Positions 1 through 12,392 of a DNA stretch of 46,253 nt are shown piece after piece (the first letter of the stretch is position 1; every line of letters begins with the position of its first letter). Both the position numbers and the translations under genes were made by a program. The DNA is from a virus, in IMG/VR virus record IMGVR_UViG_3300028388_000084, positions 1-46,253 of that record. The stretch is one strand, 5' to 3'. The notes below the pieces were generated by a model. It was not told the origin of the DNA and did not search any database. It saw only the letters and a program-made list of their open reading frames with translations.

Positions 1-37
1 TGCGTGTGATGCGCAGTTACGAAGTAACGACTAAGCA

Positions 38-406
38 TTTATACCTAATCTAAGTATAAACACCTATTTAGTATTTTGTACTCAGTCCCTTGTGCGAGTA
101 GGCATATGTACCTAAGCGTATGAGCGGTAGCCACAAGCGTATGCGAGAGCTGTGGTAGGTATAAAAACCTAAAAGTTTTGAGGCGTTTTGCCTCGTGTAT
201 GGGGGCATGGGTATGCAGATGCGTTTGGGTATCCGCAACCGCACGCCCTAATACATATATAATCCCCAATCCCTAAATAACTCAATCACTTTTTCGACTC
301 GTCTTGAACATGAGTTCTGCATTAGTATTAAATACCTAAAGCGTGAAAGCATTGTGTTTGCTAGGATTCTGTTATTTTAAAAGGCATTCATTGAGTATTT
401 ATACTC
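38..406. repeat. Cluster of GTAT/ATAC small palindromes
   Basis: Several short inverted repeats share GTAT/ATAC half-sites: TTTATAC/GTATAAA (38-44/54-60), AGTATTTTGTACT (70-82), TAGGT/ACCTA around ATAAAA (156-171), GTATTAAATAC (325-335, perfect) and GAGTATTTATACTC (393-406, perfect). Such a group could be a set of operators for a dimeric DNA-binding protein. AT-rich DNA yields short palindromes by chance, so this is only a candidate. Confidence 0.3.
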
Positions 407-439
407 TCTTGATTTTATCAAAAATAAGTTGTAACTTAG

Positions 440-574
440 CTGAGTCATTCAGGCGGTTCTGTTTGGGACGACACCGCCAAAGACTTCTATAATCTTTTAT
501 CGTTCCGTTGAATGAAGGTGCACTCTGCCCTGTCCTCAGATATAGTGAGGTAAACAGAATCTGTTTTGTTTTTT
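440..574 (+). ncRNA. Candidate structured RNA with nested stems
   Basis: Arms nest as in a multibranch RNA: CTGAG 440-444 with CTCAG 535-539; CATTCA 446-451 with TGAATG 509-514; GGCGGT 452-457 with ACCGCC 473-478; and AAAGA 479-483 with TCTTT 493-497. A terminator-like hairpin with a T-tract follows at 552-574. There is no reading frame here. It may be a small phage RNA or a leader; it matches no RNA family I recognise. The pairing was found by eye, without energy or covariation support. Confidence 0.35.
552..574 (+). terminator. Intrinsic terminator at end of leader region
   Basis: Perfect 6-bp stem AAACAG/CTGTTT (552-557/561-566) with a 3-nt loop, followed by a T-rich tract broken by a single G. 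A TATCTTTG promoter box lies just downstream, so the element ends upstream transcription and a new unit starts. Confidence 0.5.
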
Positions 575-577
575 ACT

Positions 578-585
578 TATCTTTG
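578..585 (+). promoter_or_regulatory. Bacteroidota-type -7 box TATCTTTG
   Basis: Matches TAnnTTTG exactly and ends only 4 nt before the ATG at 590. Since Bacteroidota transcription starts about 4-9 nt after this box, the mRNA is predicted to be leaderless or nearly so. No -33 TTG is seen at the usual distance. Confidence 0.55.
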
Positions 586-589
586 CCGT

Positions 590-748
590 ATGACACTGAT
601 ACTCATATTGTTAGCCCTGTTATGCATTACACTGTTCTATACTTTAACAGTTGTAGAGGACAAGGATGTACCTCATCATTTTGAATGTGGTGGGGATGAA
701 GTGTGTCACTGTGACGAATCACTTAATTGCATGAAACGTGAAAGCTAA
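590..748 (+). CDS. Small single-TM protein with Cys/His-rich tail
   Basis: A 52-residue protein. Residues 1-20 form one hydrophobic helix (MTLILILLALLCITLFYTLT), so it is probably membrane-anchored. The short tail carries His, Asp and Cys residues (HHFECGG, CHCDE, NCM) that might bind metal or form disulfides. I place the start at the ATG at 590, because the in-frame TTG at 566 lies upstream of the promoter box and inside the terminator T-tract. It is the first gene of the late block and overlaps the next gene by 11 bp. Function is unknown. Confidence 0.55.
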   Translation: MTLILILLALLCITLFYTLTVVEDKDVPHHFECGGDEVCHCDESLNCMKRES

Positions 749-971
749 GAAGAAGTCATCTGCACAATACTATGCTGAGAACAAGGAGTCTCGTGATAAG
801 AAGAAGGCGTATGATACAAAGTACCACTCAACTAAGAAGAGGAGACAGTATCGTGCTGAGCTTGTAAAGAAGCGTAGGGAGGCAGGAAGATATGGTAACG
901 GAGATGGCATGGATTACGACCACACTGAAGGTAGATTTATGTCTGCAAAAAAGAACAGAAGTAAAAAATAG
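738..971 (+). CDS. Small Lys-rich protein, MKAKKK leader
   Basis: A 77-residue, very basic protein starting at a GTG that overlaps the previous stop. The N-terminus MKAKKK is shared by several other small proteins of this phage, which supports the GTG start. The middle is a charged helix (residues 10-50). The tail holds a DYDHTEGRF motif and a basic end (KKNRSKK). Its composition suggests nucleic-acid or capsid-interior binding. I recognise the DHTxGRF type as recurring in phage small proteins but know no function. The next gene begins 3 nt after the stop. Confidence 0.55.
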   Translation: MKAKKKSSAQYYAENKESRDKKKAYDTKYHSTKKRRQYRAELVKKRREAGRYGNGDGMDYDHTEGRFMSAKKNRSKK

Positions 972-973
972 TT

Positions 974-1342
974 ATGAAAGCTAAAAAGAACATGTATAAG
1001 GGAGGTGGAAAAGTTGACCCACCAAAAGGTAAGAAGCTTACTAAAGAGATGGTAGACAAGCAATTTTCTAGCGACCTTGCTAAGTCTATGGATTTCACCA
1101 ATAAGCTTGCTAAACAAGCGGCTACAGGTAAAAGAGATGGTATGCCACTGAGTCCTTCATCACGAAAGTCTTTACAAAAGCAAGTAGATAATCGCAAGAA
1201 GAGAGAGTCTATTGCTAGACCTTACTACGGTGAGGTAGGAAAGAGACTCCCTGCTGGAGACGCTCCATTTGAGGATGACAAGTCTTTCAAGAAAGGTGGA
1301 ATGATAGCTAAGAAGCTAAAGAAAAGAGCTGCAAAAAAGTAA
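974..1342 (+). CDS. Lys-rich protein with GGKVDPPKG leader
   Basis: A 122-residue basic protein. Its first 20 residues (MKAKKNMYKGGGKVDPPKGK) closely match those of the protein at 45344-45907 near the lysis genes, although the rest differs. It ends in FKKGGMIAKKLKKRAAKK, and the KGGM element recalls the NGGMM near the end of the internal virion protein at 32327. The body is helical and charged. The stop overlaps the next start as TAATG, so the two are translationally coupled. It may bind DNA or reside in the virion; both are inference. Confidence 0.55.
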   Translation: MKAKKNMYKGGGKVDPPKGKKLTKEMVDKQFSSDLAKSMDFTNKLAKQAATGKRDGMPLSPSSRKSLQKQVDNRKKRESIARPYYGEVGKRLPAGDAPFEDDKSFKKGGMIAKKLKKRAAKK

Positions 1343-1500
1343 TGAAAGCATCACGTAAAAAAGTAATGGTAGAAGCCCCTAACGGATATCACTGGATGTC
1401 CGAAGGGGGTCGCTATTACCTTATGCCTCACAAGGGTAAGTTCGTACCTCATAAGGGAGCATCGCTGAAAGCACCATTCAAGGTTAAGCTGGCACATTAA
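1342..1500 (+). CDS. 52-aa basic protein
   Basis: A 52-residue frame starting in the TAATG overlap with the previous gene. The sequence begins MKASRKKVMVEAPNGYHWM, followed by an aromatic and His-rich beta-like section with two HKG repeats (MPHKGKF, VPHKGAS) and ends in a basic tail. The compact coupled start and MKAxxKK leader make it a real gene despite its size. Its last 17 bp overlap the end of the minus-strand gene, so transcription from both sides converges here. I see no known family. Confidence 0.55.
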   Translation: MKASRKKVMVEAPNGYHWMSEGGRYYLMPHKGKFVPHKGASLKAPFKVKLAH

Positions 1501-1918
1501 TCTGTTCCTCTCCCTCTAGTTTTCGGTAGAACTTTTGCACGAGGAGTCGTGCCTTTTGCGTTATAGCGTATCTAACACGGTATTTAAACTTGCTCTCGGC
1601 AAACATAGCGTCTTCGTAATTTTTTGGAGACAACTTATCGTAGTACTTGAAAATTAATCCCTTATTCTGTAAGGGATATATAAGTCGTAAACCTACTTTA
1701 TCTTTACTGTAAAAGTAATTCTGTGATACATGGTCTATGGTAAAGAACTCATAGTCGTATACAAAGAGCATGAAATTCATCTCACGCTCTGATACGTCAT
1801 AATGAGCTACCATATCTCTCATAGCTAACCTATAGTACTTATTGTAGGAGCGGTTTATCTTGTCTGGGTCTTTCATCTTGAAGTCCCTAAACATTCCCTT
1901 TCTGGTTCGCTTTGCCAT
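1484..1918 (-). CDS. Putative winged-helix (MarR-like) regulator
   Basis: The only minus-strand gene in the window, 144 residues. After a basic N-terminus (residues 1-30) the order resembles a winged helix: a helix ending in FMLFVYDYEFFT (about 49-60), a middle helix with DHVSQNYFYSKDKV (62-75), a recognition-like helix RLIYPLQNKGLI (78-89), a wing with KYRVRYAITQKAR and a C-terminal helix LVQKFYRKL. The pattern of ISxxTVxRRIxxLExKGLI followed by YxLTxKGxxLV is typical of MarR-type proteins. The gene reads divergently from the adhesin gene at 1955 and has its own TATCTTTG box. It probably controls late or early-late switching; targets are not visible. Confidence 0.55.
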   Translation of the reverse strand: MAKRTRKGMFRDFKMKDPDKINRSYNKYYRLAMRDMVAHYDVSEREMNFMLFVYDYEFFTIDHVSQNYFYSKDKVGLRLIYPLQNKGLIFKYYDKLSPKNYEDAMFAESKFKYRVRYAITQKARLLVQKFYRKLEGEEQINVPA

Positions 1919-1924
1919 TTTTAT

Positions 1925-1932
1925 TAAATTTG
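1925..1932 (+). promoter_or_regulatory. -7 box TAAATTTG for the adhesin gene
   Basis: Exact TAnnTTTG match 22 nt before the ATG at 1955. The surrounding ATTAAATTTGCATTA is identical to that at the promoter before 32327, suggesting co-regulation of the two genes. Confidence 0.6.
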
Positions 1933-1941
1933 CATTACATA

Positions 1942-1949
1942 CAAAGATA
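1942..1949 (-). promoter_or_regulatory. -7 box TATCTTTG for the minus-strand regulator
   Basis: The plus-strand text CAAAGATA reads TATCTTTG on the minus strand, 23 nt from the regulator's ATG. It faces the plus-strand box at 1925-1932, so the predicted start sites almost coincide and the two promoters should interfere. Confidence 0.55.
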
Positions 1950-1954
1950 TTAAA

Positions 1955-3082
1955 ATGGCTACTCTTACAAATACAAAGGTTAAAGACACCTATCCATTAC
2001 TACTTAAAGTAACCTCTGGTCTATCATCGACATTGGTAAACATTGAGGACGGTGACGGAACATCATCTGCTCTATATCTATCTACTTCAACAGTAGGTGT
2101 AGATGAGCTATCATTCACTACTGCTCCATCTACTTCTGCTACGGCAACGGAAGCGTTGTTTGTTGAAAACGGTGTAGCCGTTTCAAAAACGCTCGGAACT
2201 TCAGCATTTGTAGACACAGTAAATCTTACAGCAGGTAGTGATATCTTAATTAGTGGCACTTACCCTAACCTTACTATTACAAATAGTCGCCCAGACCAAA
2301 CTGTAAGCATTACTGGAGATACGTACAATGTCATTGGTGGCAACTATCCTTCTTTCACTATTACGAGTGCTATTACAGGTACATTTAAACAGTTTAGGGG
2401 AGACCTTGGAGTTCACGCTGCGTCTAGCCCAAATGAAGATTTCACATTCTTCGGAGGTACTGGCATCTCTACCATCGTTGAAAACACCAACCAACGTGTA
2501 GTAATCAATAACGATGCACCAGATAGAGTAGTTAGTATCACAGGTACAGGTGGAGCGACAGTTACAGGGACGTATCCCAACTTTACCGTAGATACATCTT
2601 CAATTGTAGGCGTACACGAGGAGATGTTTGTAGGTGTACCAGAATCACCATACGCTCTTGAGAGCGGTGCTTCACAGGTTGTTTCTTTTAGCGCACCAGA
2701 CAATACAGCAGAAAACGCATCATACCACTTTGGTACTGCGCCAGCAAAACTTTCTCAGCCTCATCCAGAGTATATATTAAATTCCTCTGGTTCTCCGCAG
2801 GTAATTTACATTGACATGGCTGCATACGTAGAAGTATTTAGCCCTAACTCTGACATTACTTATTACTTAGAAACAAATAAAGGTGCTGGTTGGAATATTA
2901 AACAACAAGCTACTAGAACAAAAGGAACTACTGGTTTACAAGTTGATTCTTTTTGGGGTATATTTATCATAAATGATGGAGAGCAGCTGAGGATAAGAAT
3001 AGAGTCTCAATCTGGTGATATAATACTTACTCCTCTGACTCAAATTAAATTCCAAGTAAAAGAAATTGGTAACATTATCTAA
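1955..3082 (+). CDS. Beta-rich tail fibre/adhesin-like protein
   Basis: A 375-residue protein rich in Thr, Ser, Gly and Val, as in beta-structured fibres. Residues about 90-215 contain repeats with the pattern SITGxxxxVxGxYPNFTI (ISGTYPNLTI, IGGNYPSFTI, VTGTYPNFTV). The C-terminal part, after residue 220, resembles a compact jelly-roll tip (SFSAPDN, YYLETNKGAGWNI, FIINDGEQLRIRI). It is probably a virion appendage that contacts the host surface. It stands apart from the main fibre block at 9.2-19.3 kb and has its own promoter next to that of the regulator. Confidence 0.55.
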   Translation: MATLTNTKVKDTYPLLLKVTSGLSSTLVNIEDGDGTSSALYLSTSTVGVDELSFTTAPSTSATATEALFVENGVAVSKTLGTSAFVDTVNLTAGSDILISGTYPNLTITNSRPDQTVSITGDTYNVIGGNYPSFTITSAITGTFKQFRGDLGVHAASSPNEDFTFFGGTGISTIVENTNQRVVINNDAPDRVVSITGTGGATVTGTYPNFTVDTSSIVGVHEEMFVGVPESPYALESGASQVVSFSAPDNTAENASYHFGTAPAKLSQPHPEYILNSSGSPQVIYIDMAAYVEVFSPNSDITYYLETNKGAGWNIKQQATRTKGTTGLQVDSFWGIFIINDGEQLRIRIESQSGDIILTPLTQIKFQVKEIGNII

Positions 3083-3083
3083 G

Positions 3084-3419
3084 ATGACTGAAAAACAAAA
3101 AGAATGTATTATAGAGATTCAAGATTTGCTGTTGGCTATTAACGCTGTAGTTAAAAAGCATGACTTAGAGAATGAGTTTATATCCTGTCTAGCTGTAGGA
3201 TTTTTAGACATGGATAACGTATACATTGATGAAGAAGGACAGGAGCGTGCCAACATGAGTCTGTTATCTTCTATATCAGTGAGTGATGAGGAGGAGCTAG
3301 ATGATATGTTATCATACTGTGTGGAAGCATATCGAATGGATATGAAAGAAAATGAACCTAAAGAAGGAACAATTGAGTGGTGGCTCAAGCACTTTGGGGG
3401 AGACAATAGTTTAAACTAA
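3084..3419 (+). CDS. Hypothetical acidic protein
   Basis: A 111-residue acidic, mostly helical protein starting at the ATG one base after the previous stop; an in-frame TTG at 3066 would overlap the adhesin end and is less likely. Visible features are an N-terminal helix (QKECIIEIQDLLLAINAVVKK), a central acidic stretch (SDEEELDDML) and a C-terminal EWWLKHFG. I recognise no family. It heads a run of closely spaced genes leading to TerL. Confidence 0.5.
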   Translation: MTEKQKECIIEIQDLLLAINAVVKKHDLENEFISCLAVGFLDMDNVYIDEEGQERANMSLLSSISVSDEEELDDMLSYCVEAYRMDMKENEPKEGTIEWWLKHFGGDNSLN

Positions 3420-3441
3420 CCACCAATACAATTAAATTGAA

Positions 3442-3672
3442 ATGATTAGAAAGATTATTATTGGGCGAGACCCAAAGGATGCTATGGCGTATTACGTAGG
3501 TATGCGTGCAGGAGCAGGAAAAGTGAGCGCAATTGTTGAAGATGAGGCGCATTTACATAGGTTCTCTAAAAAAAGATATCTCATATACATCGAGAATGAA
3601 GAAGGTACAATGGTTTGGAAAGCTATTGACGATATGCCTTGTATCATTGAGTATGACCTCAACTTCGATTAA
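3442..3672 (+). CDS. Hypothetical small protein
   Basis: A 76-residue protein starting MIRKIIIGRDPKDAMAYYVG, followed by alternating beta and helical segments and an acidic end (IIEYDLNFD). It lies 22 nt after the preceding gene and one base before the next ATG, so it belongs to the same operon. A small alpha/beta domain is likely. No family is recognised. Confidence 0.5.
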   Translation: MIRKIIIGRDPKDAMAYYVGMRAGAGKVSAIVEDEAHLHRFSKKRYLIYIENEEGTMVWKAIDDMPCIIEYDLNFD

Positions 3673-3673
3673 T

Positions 3674-4255
3674 ATGAAGCCGCTACATCATTTTATAGTC
3701 AAATTGAACAGAAAGTTCAATGACGAAATCAATCTTGGCGATAATACCACGTTGAAGCTCGTAACTAAGTTTGACGAGTTTGGAAATAGAGTGAACTTTG
3801 GTAAAATTATAGCTGCACCAGCAGGCTTCAAAGACGCACCATACATCGGTCAAATACTATACTTCCATCACCACGTTGTAATGGAACAGATTTACGATAT
3901 AGGAAATGGATTATACTTGGTTAATTACGACCCTAACGGAGGATATGGAAACCACGCTATCGCAATCGAAGACGAAGCTGGTCGCATACATATGCTTGGT
4001 GATTGGTGTTTCGTTCTACCGCAAGATGAAGAAGAAGAGAAAACAACTGCTTCTGGGATTATTCTTGAAATCAAAAAAGAACCTAAACTGGAGGGAGAAC
4101 TACTCGCCCTACCCAGAGATTCAGAATGGATTGGAGCGAGCATTGGTGATACTGTGGGCTACACGAAAAACTCAGACTATCAGATGGAAATGCAAGATGG
4201 CACTAAAGTCTATAGAATGAGAATAACAGACTTAGTATATGCCAAAGAAAAGTAA
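3674..4255 (+). CDS. Co-chaperonin-like protein with two GroES-type halves
   Basis: A 193-residue protein. The first half has FGKIIAAPAG, then IGQILYFHHHVV, a loop and MLGDWCFVLPQ (about residues 35-118); the second half has SGIILEIKK, then IGASIGDTVGYTK and KVYRMRITDLVYA (about 130-190). Both follow the GroES order: GxVhAhG, then hGDhVhY, then a return strand of the type hhhREDDILAVh. The region between them is acidic (DEEEEK). A phage co-chaperonin could help the host GroEL fold the capsid protein, as T4 gp31 does. The start is the ATG 2 nt after the previous stop; longer in-frame starts lie inside the upstream gene. Confidence 0.5.
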   Translation: MKPLHHFIVKLNRKFNDEINLGDNTTLKLVTKFDEFGNRVNFGKIIAAPAGFKDAPYIGQILYFHHHVVMEQIYDIGNGLYLVNYDPNGGYGNHAIAIEDEAGRIHMLGDWCFVLPQDEEEEKTTASGIILEIKKEPKLEGELLALPRDSEWIGASIGDTVGYTKNSDYQMEMQDGTKVYRMRITDLVYAKEK

Positions 4256-4532
4256 ATTTACAACTGTTGAAGCCTCAACAAGGTTGCTATCATCTATGGA
4301 GGTGGCAATAAATAATATGATTGAGGAGATTAAGAAACCTGTTGACGGTGAGCTTTCTGGTTCTCAGCGAAAGGCTGAACTACAAAGCATAAAACAGACT
4401 GCTGTTGACGCAAAAGAACTACTCATTGAATACCAGCGACTCGAACAAATGGTCAAAGAGCTTAAAGAAACAGGAGGAATTGAAGAACAACAAGACTACT
4501 CTGGAGGATTCGCAGAGCGGTTCTCAAAATAG
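4239..4532 (+). CDS. Possible terminase small subunit
   Basis: A 97-residue helical protein overlapping the end of the previous gene by 17 bp and ending 46 bp before TerL. Residues 10-35 and 45-80 form two long charged helices (AINNMIEEIKKP; KELLIEYQRLEQMVKEL), and the C-terminus is short and polar. Position just before TerL and the helical, oligomer-like make-up fit a TerS, but no DNA-binding helix-turn-helix stands out, so the call rests mainly on context. Confidence 0.35.
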   Translation: MPKKSKFTTVEASTRLLSSMEVAINNMIEEIKKPVDGELSGSQRKAELQSIKQTAVDAKELLIEYQRLEQMVKELKETGGIEEQQDYSGGFAERFSK

Positions 4533-4578
4533 TGAATGGCGATTCCTTTATTGGGACGAATAAATAGAATGTAATGAA

Positions 4579-6708
4579 ATGGCAGGGCTTAAGGAAATTA
4601 AAGGATACGATGAGGAAGTGGTTAATATATGTCCCAACGATTCAGCTGGTGAGGTCATCGAAATCGGTAATATTTATATTCAGTTACCACACCAGCCGAA
4701 AGACGAAGACATCCTCTTCTATGATAAGCCCAAAGAAATGCAGATGTGGAAGAGACTACCTATGCCACAGGAGCTGTCTCGGATTCGGAGTATGGATGAG
4801 TGGTACGAGATGCCTTCCGAATTTAAAAAGCGTTTTTCTCCGTATATCGAAAGGGAGTTTAAACGCAGGCGTGAAGGTGTTTGGTTTTGGAATAATGGTG
4901 TCGCTACATACATTACAGGCAGACATTACATGATGCTTCAGTGGTCGAAGATGGATATCGGCTACGCAAGTTATTTAGAGTTTCAAAGAAGGCTGTTTAT
5001 TCACTTTGCAGCAATAGAAAATGACCCTCGTGCTATTGGACAAAACTATGTAAAGTGTAGACGTTCTGGATACACAAACATTTCTTCAGCTATTCTTGTA
5101 GATGAAGGTACGCAGGTAAAAGACAAGCTTCTGGGTATTCAGTCTAAGACTGGTAAAGATGCACAGGAAAACGTTTTTATGAAGAAGGTTGTTCCAATGT
5201 TTAAGTCTTACCCATTCTTCTTTAAACCTATACAGGATGGTACAACCAACCCTCGCATGGAGCTTGCATTCCGTGAGCCTTCTAAGCGTATTACAAAGAA
5301 GAACAAAACATCCAATAAAGGGGAGGCACTCAATACAGTTATTAACTGGAAGAATACCACGAACAATGCATACGATGGTGAGAAAACACATATGCTGTTT
5401 CTTGATGAGGCAGGTAAGTGGGAGAAGCCTACGGACATCCGTGAAGCGTGGCGTATTGAAAAAACTTGTTTGATTGTAGGTCGTAGGATTATAGGTAAGG
5501 CTCTTGTAGGTTCTACGGTAAATCCTATGGATAAAGGTGGTAAGCAGTACAAGGAAATATGGAGAGACTCTGACCCACAAGACCGTAACGCCAATGGTAG
5601 AACAAAGACAGGTCTATACAGGCTTTTTATCCCTGCATTCGAAGCGTTGGAAGGTTTCTTTGACCAGTACGGAAATCCTATTGTAGAAGACCCAGAAGAA
5701 CCAGTAATGGGACTTGATGGTGATTGGATAAAGATAGGAGCAAAGACTTATCTAAAAAATGAGCGTGAGGCACTGAAGCACGATGCACGAGAGCTTAATG
5801 AATTCATACGTCAGTTCCCATTTACTATTGATGAAGCGATGCGTGATTCTATTGAGGGTTCAACATTTAATGTTGGTAGAATATATGAGCAGATTTCATA
5901 CAATGACGAGTTGTTTCCTAATCCTGTAGTTCAAGGCAACTTTAGCTGGAAGGATGGAGTGAAAGATACTGAGGTAGTCTTTTCTCCAAATCCACAAGGT
6001 AGATGGAGAATATCTTGGATGCCACCAAAAGAAATACGTAATAAGTATAGGATTGAGCACGGAAAGAAAGTCCCTGCTAACGACCACATAGGCGTTGGAG
6101 GTGTAGATAGTTATGACCTTGATAGTACTACTGATAATAGGGGTTCTAAGGGGGCTTGCCATCTTTATAACAAGTTTACTCTTGCCGCCCCTTCTAATAT
6201 GTTTGTGGCTGAGTACGCCTCTCGTCCGCCTCTGGCTAAGATTTTCTATGAAGACATACTTATGGCTTCAGTATTTTACGGATATCCACTATTAATAGAA
6301 AATAACAAGTACGGCATTGTAAGGCATTTTGAAGCAAGAGGATACGAGGAATATGTTATGAAGCGTCCAGAGCATTTAAAGTCTCCTAATGCTGCCTCAA
6401 ACACGAAAACAAGGGGTATACCATCCAACTCACAGGATGTAATTCAAGCACATGCTCATGCTATTGAAGCATATGTAGAAGAGCATGTAGGTATTAACCC
6501 AGAAACAGGTGAATATGGCAAAATGTATTTTAATCGTACTCTGGAAGACTGGATTGGTTACAAGATTGATAACAGGACTAAGTATGACCTTACTATTAGC
6601 GCAGGTCTTGCGCTTCTTGCAGCCCAGAAGTTCAAATCCGAAAAACCAAAATCAAACTTTAACGACAAAAAGTTCTTTAGAAGATACAAGCAAGAGATAA
6701 GGCGTTAA
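4579..6708 (+). CDS. terL: Terminase large subunit (TerL)
   Basis: A 709-residue DNA-packaging motor. The ATPase part has an adenine-motif-like region near residue 150, an unusual P-loop KCRRSGYTN near 159-167, Walker B MLFLDEA with D276/E277, and a coupling motif VGSTVNP shortly after. The nuclease part starts at GGVDSYDLD (D510, D513), continues with LLIENNKYG near 575 and ends with an Asp in YDLTISAGLALLAAQ. These are the RNase H-like catalytic acids expected in TerL. The canonical Lys of the P-loop is replaced by Tyr, so an upstream Arg or Lys may do its job. It is longer than typical TerL (450-600 residues). It sits just before portal, the common order. Confidence 0.9.
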   Translation: MAGLKEIKGYDEEVVNICPNDSAGEVIEIGNIYIQLPHQPKDEDILFYDKPKEMQMWKRLPMPQELSRIRSMDEWYEMPSEFKKRFSPYIEREFKRRREGVWFWNNGVATYITGRHYMMLQWSKMDIGYASYLEFQRRLFIHFAAIENDPRAIGQNYVKCRRSGYTNISSAILVDEGTQVKDKLLGIQSKTGKDAQENVFMKKVVPMFKSYPFFFKPIQDGTTNPRMELAFREPSKRITKKNKTSNKGEALNTVINWKNTTNNAYDGEKTHMLFLDEAGKWEKPTDIREAWRIEKTCLIVGRRIIGKALVGSTVNPMDKGGKQYKEIWRDSDPQDRNANGRTKTGLYRLFIPAFEALEGFFDQYGNPIVEDPEEPVMGLDGDWIKIGAKTYLKNEREALKHDARELNEFIRQFPFTIDEAMRDSIEGSTFNVGRIYEQISYNDELFPNPVVQGNFSWKDGVKDTEVVFSPNPQGRWRISWMPPKEIRNKYRIEHGKKVPANDHIGVGGVDSYDLDSTTDNRGSKGACHLYNKFTLAAPSNMFVAEYASRPPLAKIFYEDILMASVFYGYPLLIENNKYGIVRHFEARGYEEYVMKRPEHLKSPNAASNTKTRGIPSNSQDVIQAHAHAIEAYVEEHVGINPETGEYGKMYFNRTLEDWIGYKIDNRTKYDLTISAGLALLAAQKFKSEKPKSNFNDKKFFRRYKQEIRR

Positions 6709-6728
6709 AACACAGCGGTTTAATTTCG

Positions 6729-6736
6729 TATATTTG
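6729..6736 (+). promoter_or_regulatory. -7 box TATATTTG before portal
   Basis: Exact TAnnTTTG match in the 54-bp gap between TerL and portal, 26 nt before the ATG at 6763. It gives portal a promoter separate from TerL. Confidence 0.55.
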
Positions 6737-6762
6737 CAAGGAAGTATTTTGCGAAAGGCTAT

Positions 6763-9201
6763 ATGTACGATAAAGAAACCAAAGGGAAGTACGGTAATTT
6801 CCCAGACCCATTTTCAGATTACTCTAAAAAAGTATCTAAAGCATACGGATTAAAATACGCCAAGGCTATTGAGAAGCAGTGGGGTAATGCTGATGATGAG
6901 AGAAGTCTGTTCCGTAGAAGAATGAAAGATTTTGAAACCAATCGTGATTATGCGAATGGTACACAAGATACATCTATCTATAAACAAATTTTAAACTCTC
7001 TAGACCCTAACAGTGGGGACGGAACACTACTTAATCTTGACTGGTCTCCAGTTCCTATCGTACCAAAATTCGTTAAGATTGTTGTAAACAACATACTTTC
7101 AAAAAAACCTTATCCAAACGTAAGAGCCTTAGACCCTTTATCACAGTCTGAAAAAGACCGCAAGCGTGCTGAAAAGATGTTTGAGGTCAAGAACAAGCAG
7201 ATGCTTCAACAACTACAAGAAAAAGGTGTTGATGTAGGCACAGATATTAATAACATTCCAGATACTCCAGAAGAGGCAGAAATCTTCATGGACACTAATA
7301 TCAAGACGGCTGCTGAGGTTGCTGCTCAAGTTGGTATTAACGCTACATTGGAATGGAACGATTTTGACCAGCGTGTTTATCGTAGAGCAGTTACCGATTT
7401 GGTAACCACTGGTATGGGCGTTGTTAAGAGAAACAACGACCCTAACTATGGCATCACCGAAGAATACGTTGACCCAGCTTATTTCTTTCATAGCTACACC
7501 GAAGACCCTACATTTAGTGACCTCATTTACGCAGGACACATCAAAAAGATTAGTATCTCGGAACTCAAGCGTATCGCTGGCAATGAGTTTACTGAAGAAC
7601 AATATGCTAAAATTGCCCAATCAGTTAAAAACAAATACCAGAACCGAGCAGACAAAATAAGCTATAAATATTACGATGAGACTCTTGACCGTACAACTTA
7701 TGGATACGATGAGTTTATCATTGAGGTTATGTCTTTTGAATTTCTGTCTTCCGACTCTATATTCTTTGAAGAGAAAGAATCGAGATTTGGAAACAAAGGG
7801 TTCTACTACAAAGGTTTTGAATACACGCCACCAAAGGAATCTGTTTATGACAGAAAGCCTGTACACATGAATGTACAAACAGTTTATGGCGGTAATTACA
7901 TTGTAGGTACTGATTTTGTATATGGATACGGACAGTGTAAGAATGTACCAAAGAACGCCCACGATTTAACAAAAGCAAGACTTTCATACTCTGTTGTAGC
8001 TACAAACCTACGTAGAATGATGCCTAAGTCTCTCGTAGGCTCTGTAATTGGTTTCGCTGACCAATTACAACTATCGCACTTAAAACTTCAACAAGCTATT
8101 GCTAAAGCAAAGCCAGACGGTCTCATTGTAGACATCGAAGGTCTTGAAAATGTACAGCTTGGTAAAGGCGGTGAACTACAACCATTAGATATCCAAGACA
8201 TCTATGAACAAACAGGTGTATTCTACTATCGTTCAAAGAATCCAGAAGGTGGATTCCAAAACCCTCCAGTTCGTTCTCTGGACAATAGCATTAGGAATAT
8301 CAACGAGCTTATTGCTATTTACAACCATAATCTCCGTCTTATCCGTGATACAACAGGTATTAATGAAGTAATGGACGGTACATCTCCAAAAGGAGAGCAG
8401 CTCGTAGGTGTTCGTCAGCAAGCAATGGCTGCTGGGAACAACGCTATCTACGACATTACCAATGCTTCTATTTATCTGTACAGCAGAGTATGTGAGGATG
8501 TAATTAAGTGTCTTCAGATTCTCCCTCCTAAGTCTGTTATTTTTAAGGCTTATGAGAATGCTATTGGAAAGACAAACATGGATATCCTTTCGTCATTTTC
8601 TAATCTTCCGATGTACAACTTTGGTGTGAAGATTCATACAGAAATGGACGATACAGAGAAATCTTACTTAGAGCAAAACATTCAGATTGCCCTTTCTCAG
8701 AAAGAGATTGACCTTGAAGATGCTATTGCCATTCGTCAGCTTAGAGATATTGACCAAGCGGAAAGATTATTGATTGTAAGACGCAAGAAACGTATTAAGC
8801 AACAACAAGAGATGGCTGCCCAGAACTCTCAGATGCAAGCTCAGATGAATCAGCAAACAGCAATGGCTGCTTCACAAGGTAAGATGCAGGAGATTCAAGC
8901 AAAAACTCAAGCTAAAATTGCTGAGATTCAAGCGGATGCTCAAGCACAGGCACAACTTTTACAATTGGAGTACGAATTGAAACAACAGCTTGAAACTTCC
9001 AAAGGAATGACCTCTCAGATGCAACGTCAAGAGGACATGTCATTTAGAGCAGGACTTGAAAAAGAGAAAGAAGACCGAAAAGATGAGCGTGTTAAAAAAC
9101 AAGCTGTAGAACAATCTAAAATGATTTCTCAGCGTCAAGGACAGCGTGGTGAACTTCAAGACGAAGAAGAAAGCTTAGTTGATAGGTTAACAAGCTCATA
9201 A
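6763..9201 (+). CDS. Portal protein
   Basis: An 812-residue protein directly after TerL. The N-terminal third contains DWSPVPIVPKFVKIVVNNIL (about 88-107), a typical portal clip/stem lead-in, then a mixed domain with FEVKNKQML. The middle (about 400-560) has the wing region with SVVATNLRRMMPKSLVGS and a segment DTTGINEVMDGTSPKGEQ. From residue 660 it becomes a long Gln/Ala-rich coiled coil (MAAQNSQMQAQMNQQ onward) that would form the barrel inside the head. Length and plan fit podovirus and crAss-like portals. It forms the dodecameric vertex ring for DNA entry and exit. Confidence 0.85.
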   Translation: MYDKETKGKYGNFPDPFSDYSKKVSKAYGLKYAKAIEKQWGNADDERSLFRRRMKDFETNRDYANGTQDTSIYKQILNSLDPNSGDGTLLNLDWSPVPIVPKFVKIVVNNILSKKPYPNVRALDPLSQSEKDRKRAEKMFEVKNKQMLQQLQEKGVDVGTDINNIPDTPEEAEIFMDTNIKTAAEVAAQVGINATLEWNDFDQRVYRRAVTDLVTTGMGVVKRNNDPNYGITEEYVDPAYFFHSYTEDPTFSDLIYAGHIKKISISELKRIAGNEFTEEQYAKIAQSVKNKYQNRADKISYKYYDETLDRTTYGYDEFIIEVMSFEFLSSDSIFFEEKESRFGNKGFYYKGFEYTPPKESVYDRKPVHMNVQTVYGGNYIVGTDFVYGYGQCKNVPKNAHDLTKARLSYSVVATNLRRMMPKSLVGSVIGFADQLQLSHLKLQQAIAKAKPDGLIVDIEGLENVQLGKGGELQPLDIQDIYEQTGVFYYRSKNPEGGFQNPPVRSLDNSIRNINELIAIYNHNLRLIRDTTGINEVMDGTSPKGEQLVGVRQQAMAAGNNAIYDITNASIYLYSRVCEDVIKCLQILPPKSVIFKAYENAIGKTNMDILSSFSNLPMYNFGVKIHTEMDDTEKSYLEQNIQIALSQKEIDLEDAIAIRQLRDIDQAERLLIVRRKKRIKQQQEMAAQNSQMQAQMNQQTAMAASQGKMQEIQAKTQAKIAEIQADAQAQAQLLQLEYELKQQLETSKGMTSQMQRQEDMSFRAGLEKEKEDRKDERVKKQAVEQSKMISQRQGQRGELQDEEESLVDRLTSS

Positions 9202-9213
9202 TCAGTAAATTAC

Positions 9214-9221
9214 TACCTTTG
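9214..9221 (+). promoter_or_regulatory. -7 box TACCTTTG before the structural/fibre block
   Basis: Exact TAnnTTTG match in the gap after portal, 15 nt before the ATG at 9237. It could start the transcript for genes 9237-12311, which then end at the terminator at 12332. Confidence 0.55.
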
Positions 9222-9236
9222 TAAAAAATAAAAAAT

Positions 9237-9521
9237 ATGGCTTTAGATAAAAACCACAACAGGCTTAAAGCAGAATACGCTGCAAACCTTCAATCATTTG
9301 GTCAGAATGGATTCAAAATTGTTGGCAGCTCTCCAGTTGATGGAGAGTTTGTCGCTATTACAGCTCTTGAGGAGTCTTTAGTTGATTACACAATTCCAAC
9401 AGGCATGAACGCTGATGTGGGTCAAATCCTACTTCCAGCTGGTCTAACTATCTACGGAAAGTTCACATCGGTTACTGCTATCTCTGGTGTTGTTTTGGCT
9501 TACAACTTGACTGAAGGTTAA
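9237..9521 (+). CDS. Small beta-rich virion protein
   Basis: A 94-residue protein with the order SPVDGEFVAITALEE, a strand-rich middle and LPAGLTIYGKFTSV ending in GVVLAYN. This DGxFxAITALE plus AGxTIxGxFTS layout recurs in small phage structural proteins found next to head or fibre genes, so a decoration or appendage role is likely. It overlaps the next gene as TAATG. Precise role unknown. Confidence 0.5.
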   Translation: MALDKNHNRLKAEYAANLQSFGQNGFKIVGSSPVDGEFVAITALEESLVDYTIPTGMNADVGQILLPAGLTIYGKFTSVTAISGVVLAYNLTEG

Positions 9522-10282
9522 TGCTTGGATTAGGACTACATATCAATAAATCAAATGTCTTAGAGACTGGTGTTCCCATTCCTCTACAGCCTGTTGCTTG
9601 GTATAACGAAAAGTCTTTATCTCTTTACAACGATGGTGAACCTGTAGATATATACCAAGATAAAAGTGGAGGGACTTCTTTTGATTTGCTTCAGACAGAT
9701 TTAAATAAAAGACCTGTTGTTGATATCCAAGAAGGTAGAAAGGTATTGTACTTTACTAATGATATACTTGTAGAGTCTGAGCTACCTGTCCTTGATGGAA
9801 GTTCTGAGTTTACAATGATTTACGTAGGTAAGTTACTTTCTACATATCATACAGGTATCTACATAGGAGACAATTCAACTCCAGATAATAGCTCAAGCTT
9901 TAGACTGGGAAGAAGCACATCGAATAAGCTAAGAGCTATATTAGGTGACGGAGCAGGAGGACTATTTGAAACACCTTTTTCATTTCAGAATAACGGAACT
10001 GTTGATATAGCTTACGCATACGGAACAAGCTCAAGCTCAGCAGATATATATGTGGGTCTCGATGACGGAAACGTAAATCAAGAAATTCAATTCCCTAATC
10101 ATTCTTTAGATTTAGTTTTTGGTAGAGGTATTGGAATTGGAACAAACAATCCAGAAAACCCATCTCAAACAGGTACAGGTACAGGGTGGTGGATGTACGA
10201 GGTCATTGTATATGATAGAGCATTGACATCTACAGAATTAACAAGCGTTAGAGAATATCTACGTAATAAATGGAACGTGTAA
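9521..10282 (+). CDS. LamG/ConA-like lectin virion protein
   Basis: A 253-residue protein with a LamG-like beta-sandwich plan. It begins with VAWYNEKSLSLYNDG and DIYQDKSGG near residues 26-50, has FTMIYVGKLL in the middle and ends with MYEVIVYDRALTSTELTSV and YLRNKWNV. The last motif, IVYDRALTxxEhxxVxxYLxxKW, is the usual closing strand plus helix of bacterial and phage LamG domains. It probably binds a host polysaccharide. It is coupled on both sides through TAATG overlaps. Confidence 0.65.
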   Translation: MLGLGLHINKSNVLETGVPIPLQPVAWYNEKSLSLYNDGEPVDIYQDKSGGTSFDLLQTDLNKRPVVDIQEGRKVLYFTNDILVESELPVLDGSSEFTMIYVGKLLSTYHTGIYIGDNSTPDNSSSFRLGRSTSNKLRAILGDGAGGLFETPFSFQNNGTVDIAYAYGTSSSSADIYVGLDDGNVNQEIQFPNHSLDLVFGRGIGIGTNNPENPSQTGTGTGWWMYEVIVYDRALTSTELTSVREYLRNKWNV

Positions 10283-10641
10283 TGGCAAACAAGATAAACT
10301 TAGACGCAGCTAAACGAGTAGACATCACCTGTAGAAAGGGTGACACGTTTGTCTTGGACTTAGCTTTTACAGATGCATCTGGAACTGCATTTGACTTGAC
10401 AGGATATAGCTGGAAGCTGGATGTAAAAGAAACAGATACCTCAGCAGGGGATATTATTCCAGAAACAGATTTCACATATGTGGGGGATGTTGATGGTAAC
10501 TTAAAAGTTACGGCAACTGCCACAGCAATGTCTAATGTAGATGGTGGTCTATACGTATATGACCTACAGTCTAACTTTGGTGGTGTAGTGACCACTTGGA
10601 TTTACGGAGTGTTTCAAGTAAACGAAGATGTAAGTGAGTAA
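10282..10641 (+). CDS. Ig-like/baseplate-type beta-sandwich protein
   Basis: A 119-residue protein from the ATG in the TAATG overlap; an ATG at 10270 would overlap the LamG gene more deeply and gives a poorer start. It contains CRKGDTFVLDLAFTDASG, then FDLTGYSWKLDVKE and GLYVYDLQSN. The pattern RGDTFxLxhxhxDxxGxxhDLTGYxhxhxhR is typical of phage Ig-like domains in baseplate or fibre adaptors, such as the N-terminal BppU type. It likely links appendages to the virion. Confidence 0.55.
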   Translation: MANKINLDAAKRVDITCRKGDTFVLDLAFTDASGTAFDLTGYSWKLDVKETDTSAGDIIPETDFTYVGDVDGNLKVTATATAMSNVDGGLYVYDLQSNFGGVVTTWIYGVFQVNEDVSE

Positions 10642-10936
10642 CAATATTGAAATAAAAAACGGAACGGTAGTCAGTGTAACTGTACCAGAGCAGAGTCCAA
10701 GCAATGTAACCATTGCAGGGATGAAAGCTATCGGTATTACCGATTCTCGTTTTGAACACGAGCAGACAAGCTCATCTAAAACGTGGACAATAAACCACAA
10801 TTTAAATAAAAAGCCATCGGTAACGGTGGTCGACAGCGGTGATAATGTTGTCATTGGTGAAGTACAGTATATCGATAATAATAACCTAACCGTAAGCTTC
10901 AGCGCCTCATTTAGTGGTAAGGCTTACTTAAACTAA
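10634..10936 (+). CDS. Small tail-fibre-associated beta protein
   Basis: A 100-residue protein starting at a GTG that overlaps the previous stop by 8 bp. The C-terminal part has TWTINHNLNKKPSVTVVDS, then IGEVQYIDNNNLTVSFS and FSGKAYLN. This WxINHNLxKKPSVTVVD and FSGxAYLN module is frequent in phage tail-fibre genes, as a separate protein or as a domain. It probably is a small adaptor or tip component. It forms a coupled string with the three genes before it. Confidence 0.6.
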   Translation: MSNNIEIKNGTVVSVTVPEQSPSNVTIAGMKAIGITDSRFEHEQTSSSKTWTINHNLNKKPSVTVVDSGDNVVIGEVQYIDNNNLTVSFSASFSGKAYLN

Positions 10937-10949
10937 AAACTAAAACTCT

Positions 10950-12311
10950 ATGGCTGTTAAATTTCTCTCTGGTCTAGATATATACGGAAGTATAGACCTA
11001 CAGAAAAATGAGTTGAAGAATGCGGTTATGCATTCGTTGGCTCTCGCTCCCTCTAATCCTGTTGAGGGTCAAATGTACTGGGATTCGTCTCAGTCTGGCG
11101 GAAAAAAACTTTATATCTACGATGCAGATGGTGCTGCGTGGATTGACATCACTGGTGACTTAACCAGTCTTTCTTCTGGAGCTAAGAACACTATCTCTGT
11201 AACAGGTGGTTCTGGTGGTGATGTAACTATCGAACTCGACCACTTAGGTATCGAGAACTTGTCTGCACCTACAGGTGATGGTATCCTTTTCTGGGATAGC
11301 TCAGCATTGTCTAACGCTGGTACTACTGGGTGGTTGACAATGGATACTGATTCTGGTATTCGATTCATCGGTACTAATTTGCAGCTTTACCAAATTCCTA
11401 ACAGCTCTCTCGCTAACGACAGTGTAACTGTAACCAAAGGAAACGGTCTTACTTCTACTTCTGGTGGAACTATGGCTCTTGGTGAGTCTGTTACTATCAC
11501 GGTTGGTGAGGGAACAGGTATCTCGGTTGAAACCAATGCGGTAGCTCTTAAGAACCACGCTTCTCTTGGTGCTAATACCTTGCTGATGTGGGATGACACG
11601 AACGGTCAATTGACTGATTCTGTTATTACTCAAGACGCTACATCAAGTGCTATTACAATCAGTGATGACTTGACAGTAACTGGTGACTTGACTGTTCAAG
11701 GTTCTCTTACTTCTATTGAGACGACTAATACAGCAATCACAGATAACGTAATCGTTCTCAACAAAGGAGAACAAGGTGCTGGAGTAAGTTCTACGTTCTC
11801 TGGTTTTGAAGTAGATAGAGGTACTGAGTCTAACGTGTCTTTCTTATGGGATGATGTAAACGACAGATGGCAAGTAGGTGGTAAGTTAAAGCTTAACACT
11901 ATTCCTCTTGTATCTAATGTAGCAAACGTTCTTATTGAGGAGGATGTAGCTGGAGCTGGAGAGATTAGAAAAGTAGGTATTCAGACACTTAAGAACTTGA
12001 TGGGCGGACAGAATATGTCGCTTGTTTTAGAGCCATCTGGAGGTGTTAAGCCTGTTGGAGAGCTTTGGGTAACTAAGTCTGGAAACACCTACACTGTAGA
12101 GCATTACATGGGTACTAAGCGCATTATCGCTCAAGTAATGGATGCAACTACAGGTGAGACTGTTTTCGTTGATGTTATAAGAACTACTGACGATGAAGTT
12201 GAAGTTGCTTTCGGTTCGACTGTAACAGATGGTGCTTATATCTTAAACCTACAAGTTGTTAAGCCAGAGTCACACGGTGACGGTGGAGGAGCTGCTGGAG
12301 GTACTAATTAA
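10950..12311 (+). CDS. Tail fibre protein
   Basis: A 453-residue, Gly/Ser/Thr-rich protein. Near residues 35-65 it has a VEGQMYWDSS and LYIYDADGAAWIDI segment as in many phage fibres. Around 230-280 the series DDLTVTGDLTVQGSL and AITDNVIVLNKGE marks a classic fibre-shaft motif. The end (about 350-440) forms a small beta domain and closes with a Gly/His-rich tail. Codon choice is strongly biased to GGT, CTT and ACT, suggesting high expression. A strong terminator follows directly. It probably forms a trimeric fibre. Confidence 0.7.
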   Translation: MAVKFLSGLDIYGSIDLQKNELKNAVMHSLALAPSNPVEGQMYWDSSQSGGKKLYIYDADGAAWIDITGDLTSLSSGAKNTISVTGGSGGDVTIELDHLGIENLSAPTGDGILFWDSSALSNAGTTGWLTMDTDSGIRFIGTNLQLYQIPNSSLANDSVTVTKGNGLTSTSGGTMALGESVTITVGEGTGISVETNAVALKNHASLGANTLLMWDDTNGQLTDSVITQDATSSAITISDDLTVTGDLTVQGSLTSIETTNTAITDNVIVLNKGEQGAGVSSTFSGFEVDRGTESNVSFLWDDVNDRWQVGGKLKLNTIPLVSNVANVLIEEDVAGAGEIRKVGIQTLKNLMGGQNMSLVLEPSGGVKPVGELWVTKSGNTYTVEHYMGTKRIIAQVMDATTGETVFVDVIRTTDDEVEVAFGSTVTDGAYILNLQVVKPESHGDGGGAAGGTN

Positions 12312-12360: not shown

Positions 12361-12368
12361 TATTTTTG
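12361..12368 (+). promoter_or_regulatory. -7 box TATTTTTG before the large fibre genes
   Basis: Exact TAnnTTTG match beginning one base after the preceding T-tract and 24 nt before the ATG at 12393. It forms a terminator-promoter cassette with that hairpin. Confidence 0.6.
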
Positions 12369-12392
12369 TAAGCACAAACATATTTCACTATT

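Follow-up and report, generated by a model that had tools for sequence, protein, structure and literature searches.

Facing -7 boxes between a predicted MarR-fold regulator gene and a late virion operon in a flavophage genome

Introduction

In the temperate coliphages 186 and P2, the lysis/lysogeny promoters form part of switches that have two regulators and known operators. The mnt/ant promoters of phage P22 are an analogue, on which nothing relevant was found in the portions of the literature available. MarR, MepR, and OhrR are repressors that are read divergently from the gene they control. Facing promoters are also present in plasmid RA3 (orf02p/orf02prev and repBp/repXp), where mutations cutting repXp 50-fold raised repBp 14-fold (excerpt of PMC9455977).

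According to the accessible parts of PMC10136315 and PMC8375218, members of the Crassvirales employ a virion polymerase for early genes and probably the host RNA polymerase for late genes. The timing of late genes in crAss-related phages that use the host enzyme for them is poorly known. Here, we describe a compact regulator-operon pair in the 46,253-base IMG/VR virus record IMGVR_UViG_3300028388_000084, the whole of which was analysed and is referred to below as the window.

Results

The window represents the late block of a flavophage. Its large terminase shares, among the matches listed, 40-48% identity with those of Flavobacterium elemo phages and of the uncultured podovirus ctfjg026, and a 1574-aa protein contains the crAssvirus muzzle C-terminal domain (E 2.1e-11). 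Megablast of positions 1-12000 against phages gave no match, and neither did tblastn of the regulator, the fibre-like protein, and gene 3084-3419 against phages, nor tblastn of the L033 member. The regulator had been described as the only minus-strand gene. Inspection of the ORF list confirms this for the window, since the remaining large minus-strand ORFs sit within plus-strand genes. In three related contigs (G001, G003, and G009; 61-65 kb), the late block occupies one strand and the early/replication block the other. The regulator is read in the early direction, against the adjoining late genes, in the window and all three of these contigs. The intergenic region between the regulator and the fibre-like gene comprises 36 bp (Table 1).

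Table 1. Positions of the regulator, the facing boxes, and selected genes of the late block in the window.
Feature	Position	Strand	Basis
Candidate regulator, 144 aa, pI 9.65, predicted MarR-type winged helix	1484-1918	-	ORF, AlphaFold, structure matches
TAAATTTG, Bacteroidetes-type -7 box aimed at fibre gene and operon	1925-1932	+	Kept in relatives
Spacer of 9 bp separating the facing boxes, contains both predicted starts	1933-1941	.	4-5 nt rule (excerpt of PMC6847099)
TATCTTTG, Bacteroidetes-type -7 box aimed at regulator gene	1942-1949	-	Kept in relatives
Fibre-like protein, 375 aa, head of late operon; conserved N-terminal, variable C-terminal part	1955-3082	+	
Next operon gene; homologue adjoins facing boxes in L105-L109	3084-3419	+	Similarity read from translations
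Large terminase, downstream, same gene block	4579-6708	+	phrog_6681, E 2.4e-198

The sequence-only reading had placed two promoter boxes face to face in this gap, and both their coordinates and their orientation proved right. TATCTTTG as well as TAAATTTG matches the sigma-ABfr -7 element TAHHTTTG, given as the consensus -7 element of the Bacteroidetes primary sigma factor in the available part of PMC6847099. The same excerpt states that transcription in F. johnsoniae usually starts 4 or 5 nt past this element. By this rule, the starts are predicted at approximately 1937-1938 (plus strand) and 1936-1937 (minus strand), about 2 bp or less apart, so that the earlier statement of start sites within a few bases of each other holds as a prediction, with both at 1936-1938. 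A strict TAHHTTTG facing pair with a spacer of 0-14 nt occurs once in the 46-kb window, compared to 0.04 on average and at most 1 across 200 dinucleotide shuffles. Single TANNTTTG sites are near chance (53 in the window versus 44.8 by chance); 14 of these 53, within approximately 1.5 kb, were counted as intergenic using a gene list typed by hand. As for the -33 element (TTTG/TTG), the window has a TTG at N18 for the regulator box and none for the fibre box, and no preferred position was detected across 42 late boxes. The -33 signal is weak in F. johnsoniae promoters too (PMC6847099, in excerpt).

A second facing TANNTTTG pair, with a looser TANN, is located at 12361/12375 (window positions 12361-12382; spacer 6), upstream of a gene for a 1304-aa fibre-like protein and directly past a terminator-like hairpin. 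Its minus-strand box has a G where, in the part of PMC6847099 available, G is rare in F. johnsoniae. The late -7 boxes at 12361, 20070, 22515, and 25997 directly follow terminator-like hairpins, so that their -33 region is the hairpin itself.

The number of relatives confirmed by tblastn was 33 in the first scan, 534 with a profile, and 279 with a distant member, the best 80 being kept from each of the latter two sets. The cluster test covered 163 loci (the window, L033, L034, L035-L114, and L153-L232), including these best 80 of 534 and best 80 of 279 relatives, and left out L002-L032 and L136-L150, which are mostly from the same contigs. Among 103 distinct entries, the 100 with at least 120 aa were clustered and three were dropped, which resulted in 33 clusters at 80% identity. 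Both boxes are perfect and facing in 24 of the 33 clusters, compared to a mean of 0.015 in single-nucleotide shuffles; as the clusters have common ancestry, these values do not measure how probable it is that the pairs arose independently. If the regulator box may end in A (TTTA allowed, a relaxation picked after the data had been seen), facing boxes are present in 30 of the 33 clusters (mean of 0.03, again in single-nucleotide shuffles).

The operon-side box is present in 31 of the 33 clusters. Six clusters have an A in place of the final G of the regulator box, which is expected to weaken this box. No boxes were found within the scanned 110 nt in L185 and L204, and the regulator box of L230 is broken (TAAATTCG). 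The spacer between facing boxes ranges from 1 to 11 nt across relatives. While spacer length varies, most letter changes within the boxes affect the two free positions in TAnnTTTG, a pattern that would be expected of a selected -7 element. The gaps between the regulator and its neighbour are mostly 29-53 nt across relatives, and in all 33 first-scan loci a divergent ORF with a fibre-like N-terminus lies 29-38 nt away. Genome contigs contributed two loci only, both in one Bacteroidetes MAG. Occurrence of the boxes by chance was rejected in view of the window shuffles and the cluster counts in relatives. No report of a facing regulator/late-operon promoter arrangement was found in the portions of the literature available.

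The distribution of boxes among early and late genes was determined in the window and in contigs G001, G003, and G009, counting those genes that are preceded by 25 nt or more. TANNTTTG is present upstream of 31 of 55 late-strand genes and 4 of 49 early-strand genes, three of these four being the regulator. With the four regulators excluded, the ratio is 31/55 versus 1/45 (Fisher, p 9e-10); with the four partner promoters also taken from the late matches, p is 1e-8. The boxes thus mark late-strand and rarely early-strand genes, so that the regulator appears to carry a late, host-type promoter. Host-type boxes at late genes and the regulator, and mostly none at early genes, would fit a phage polymerase acting early and the host polymerase late. 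A conserved copy of the DxDxD RNA polymerase motif was absent from the giant late protein of the window. Early blocks show other repeated motifs. GGTTATCTGT occurs in 10 copies in G003, all on the early strand of the early block and often right after a GC-rich inverted repeat; it is likely to be a phage-specific early promoter (L131, contig 54133-58420). ACTATAGA, which differs from the G003 motif, has 6 copies in G009, again all on the early strand of the early block, and is likewise a likely early promoter motif (L133, contig 4569-8714). The early block also encodes a protein with ArdC-like antirestriction domains (PF08401, PF18818; L133:5092-6009).

The regulator had been called winged-helix-like from its sequence, with a comparison of its predicted structure to MarR folds suggested as the check. 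The AlphaFold model, made from 21 sequences, has a winged-helix fold with a pLDDT of 75.0 and a pTM of 0.65; residues 1-17 and 107-111 are poorly modelled. The best PDB match in Foldseek has E 4.3e-3 and prob 1.00. All 50 listed matches are transcription regulators, e.g., MarR, MepR, AbfR, and FabT; several are titled MarR family, and we take the others to belong to this family as well. VIA-align gave Z 11.8 both to 2a61 (108 residues, rmsd 3.7) and to 4lll MepR (106 residues, rmsd 5.2). The earlier assignment is therefore borne out at the level of the predicted model, and a winged-helix fold of MarR topology is predicted for the 144-aa protein. The model ends past helix 121-134, and the last C-terminal helix, which helps MarR proteins to dimerise, is not seen. 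Identity in the structure matches listed is 6-18%. No MarR sequence profile in PHROGs, Pfam, or NCBIfam was matched by the 21 members at E up to 0.1, and the protein is accordingly called MarR-fold and not a MarR family member. Matches to phrog_17028 at E up to 0.1 were obtained for 13 of the 21 members, the best having E 2e-5.

Beyond the boxes, no operator was found in the window's clade, where the TTTG..CAAA symmetry can stem from the boxes alone. A palindromic operator, TTTGYATNNNATRCAAA, was considered for this clade. It was dropped because visual comparison did not trace it into the clades whose spacers measure 7 nt and 10 nt, and because its outer symmetry follows from the two boxes.

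The partner gene is less constant than the boxes. In the fibre-like protein, 12 of 13 invariant columns fall in the first 76 residues, and the C-terminal part varies in length and sequence. The 375-aa protein of the window has no convincing family match, its relatives have scattered structural or tail-fibre matches, and the fibre profile matched nothing in the PDB. 'Adhesin' is thus a plausible but tentative name. The sequence-only reading had paired the regulator with an adhesin; this stands insofar as the neighbour is usually a fibre-like gene, but a partner that is always an adhesin is ruled out by several clades with another gene beside the same facing boxes. In L105-L109, no divergent ORF of at least 120 aa was found, and a homologue of window gene 3084-3419, judged by the similarity of the translations, adjoins the boxes instead. 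In another clade, a gene encoding roughly 100 aa, with LFFAEMYSLVKK close to the start, occupies the partner's position. Since the partner swaps while the boxes stay, the conserved unit is the regulator plus the head of the late operon.

More distant homologues occur in cultured phages. Hhalign of the regulator group against these homologues gave a probability of 97 (E 9e-11), while the regulator profile gave no match to two named phages, both of which carry a distant homologue detected by another route. The homologue in Cellulophaga phage phi13:2 is a full-length match to phrog_17028 (E 5.3e-123), and that in ctfjg026 is annotated as 'repressor protein'. A search with the latter at E up to 1 retrieved 85 records (68 from Flavobacterium, 15 from Cellulophaga, one from Maribacter, and itself), 78 of them at E up to 0.01. 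Maribacter phage Panino has its facing boxes directly against each other, forming the perfect palindrome TATCTTTGCAAAGATA, from which the regulator homologue is read as the second gene. The boxes are back to back in ctfjg026 (2 nt apart) and in phi13:2 and phi18:3 (25 nt apart), so facing starts cannot account for exclusion in every homologue. Judged from these sequences, reading away from the neighbouring gene is more widespread than facing boxes are. The elemoF homologue is read in the direction of the terminase, and the 99 nt that precede it showed no box. The best operator candidate seen lies between the 'repressor' gene of ctfjg026 and its divergent neighbour, as a perfect inverted repeat of 9 bp, TGTCACAAA/TTTGTGACA (L115:11204-11231).

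Discussion

We consider it probable, with moderate confidence, that the MarR-fold regulator and the late virion operon headed by the fibre-like gene have a mutually exclusive promoter pair. The host RNA polymerase would be able to open either promoter, but not both together. The 36-bp gap is nearly all promoter, so the regulator, once bound there, would block both and limit its own synthesis. It may thereby tune or delay the output of late virion genes. The locus is best read as that of a MarR-fold regulator which acts on late virion genes and limits itself. The earlier proposal of a natural toggle between regulator and adhesin went beyond the evidence: overlapping promoters imply mutual exclusion and not bistability, for a toggle, the two sides would have to repress each other or be linked by feedback in such a way that two stable states arise, and the window yielded no operator. 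A two-state toggle is one possible outcome.

Plain compaction, that is, two host-type promoters that overlap in a short divergent gap with no regulatory use, is the strongest rival, and we regard it as rather unlikely. It would account for the short gaps among relatives and for the late promoters elsewhere in the window, which likewise lie tight against genes or terminators, and it agrees with the range of box relations from facing at 11 nt to back to back in distant homologues. A short gap would fit back-to-back boxes too, however, and yet the order is facing in 30 of the 33 clusters. Moreover, divergent transcription of a MarR-fold gene and its neighbour is a classic autoregulatory layout.

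There is a smaller chance that the protein acts mainly elsewhere, e.g., as an activator of late host-type promoters that have no -33 element, and that the geometry at its own gene is incidental. T4 MotA helps the host RNA polymerase at middle promoters in this manner, and one of the 21 members has a match to a MotA-like PHROG (E 0.033); late boxes also have no evident -33 element. This match, however, to the MotA-like PHROG is weak and single. F. johnsoniae's own promoters have little -33 signal (excerpt of PMC6847099), so that the lack of this signal can be explained without an additional factor. A role of the winged-helix protein in DNA handling or packaging, for example as a small-terminase-like factor, might be suggested by its basic nature (pI 9.65) and by the position of its gene within the late block, only a few genes away from that of the large terminase. 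We consider such a role highly improbable: in the window and the three mapped contigs, the gene runs against the late block, unlike the packaging genes there, the listed structure matches of the protein are MarR-type transcription regulators, and the ctfjg026 homologue matches a PHROG labelled transcriptional regulator (E 6.6e-4).

Mutual exclusion of the two promoters is thus retained as the preferred interpretation. As a tentative extension, which we put forward as possible and somewhat short of probable, a large group of marine crAss-related flavophages may hold their late programme under a built-in exclusion switch. A shared start region would assign each initiation by the host RNA polymerase to one side, and selection would keep this geometry even as the distance between the boxes shrinks from 11 bp to none and the first operon gene swaps. 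With the conserved, compact regulator-operon pair, reporter and binding assays have a well-delimited target of 36 bp, and homologues are available in cultured Maribacter, Flavobacterium, and Cellulophaga phages.

Among the closest counterparts are the profile-level homologues of phi13:2, phi18:3, and ctfjg026, which are also read against neighbouring genes; they differ in that their boxes are back to back and their proteins have an extra C-terminal part. The regulator shares its predicted fold and divergent gene layout with MarR, MepR, and OhrR, but differs from this family in the low identity among the matches listed, the lack of a MarR profile match, and the last C-terminal helix, which is not seen. 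Plasmid RA3 has facing promoters as well, one affecting the other; there, plasmid control is exerted by global regulators, whereas here a divergently read phage gene encodes a MarR-fold protein. In the lysis/lysogeny promoters of coliphages 186 and P2, two phage promoters face each other and one reads a repressor gene. Facing promoters with overlapping start regions, as in the 186/P2 type, are indicated by the box geometry of the window, but here the partner is a late virion operon and one regulator is identified.
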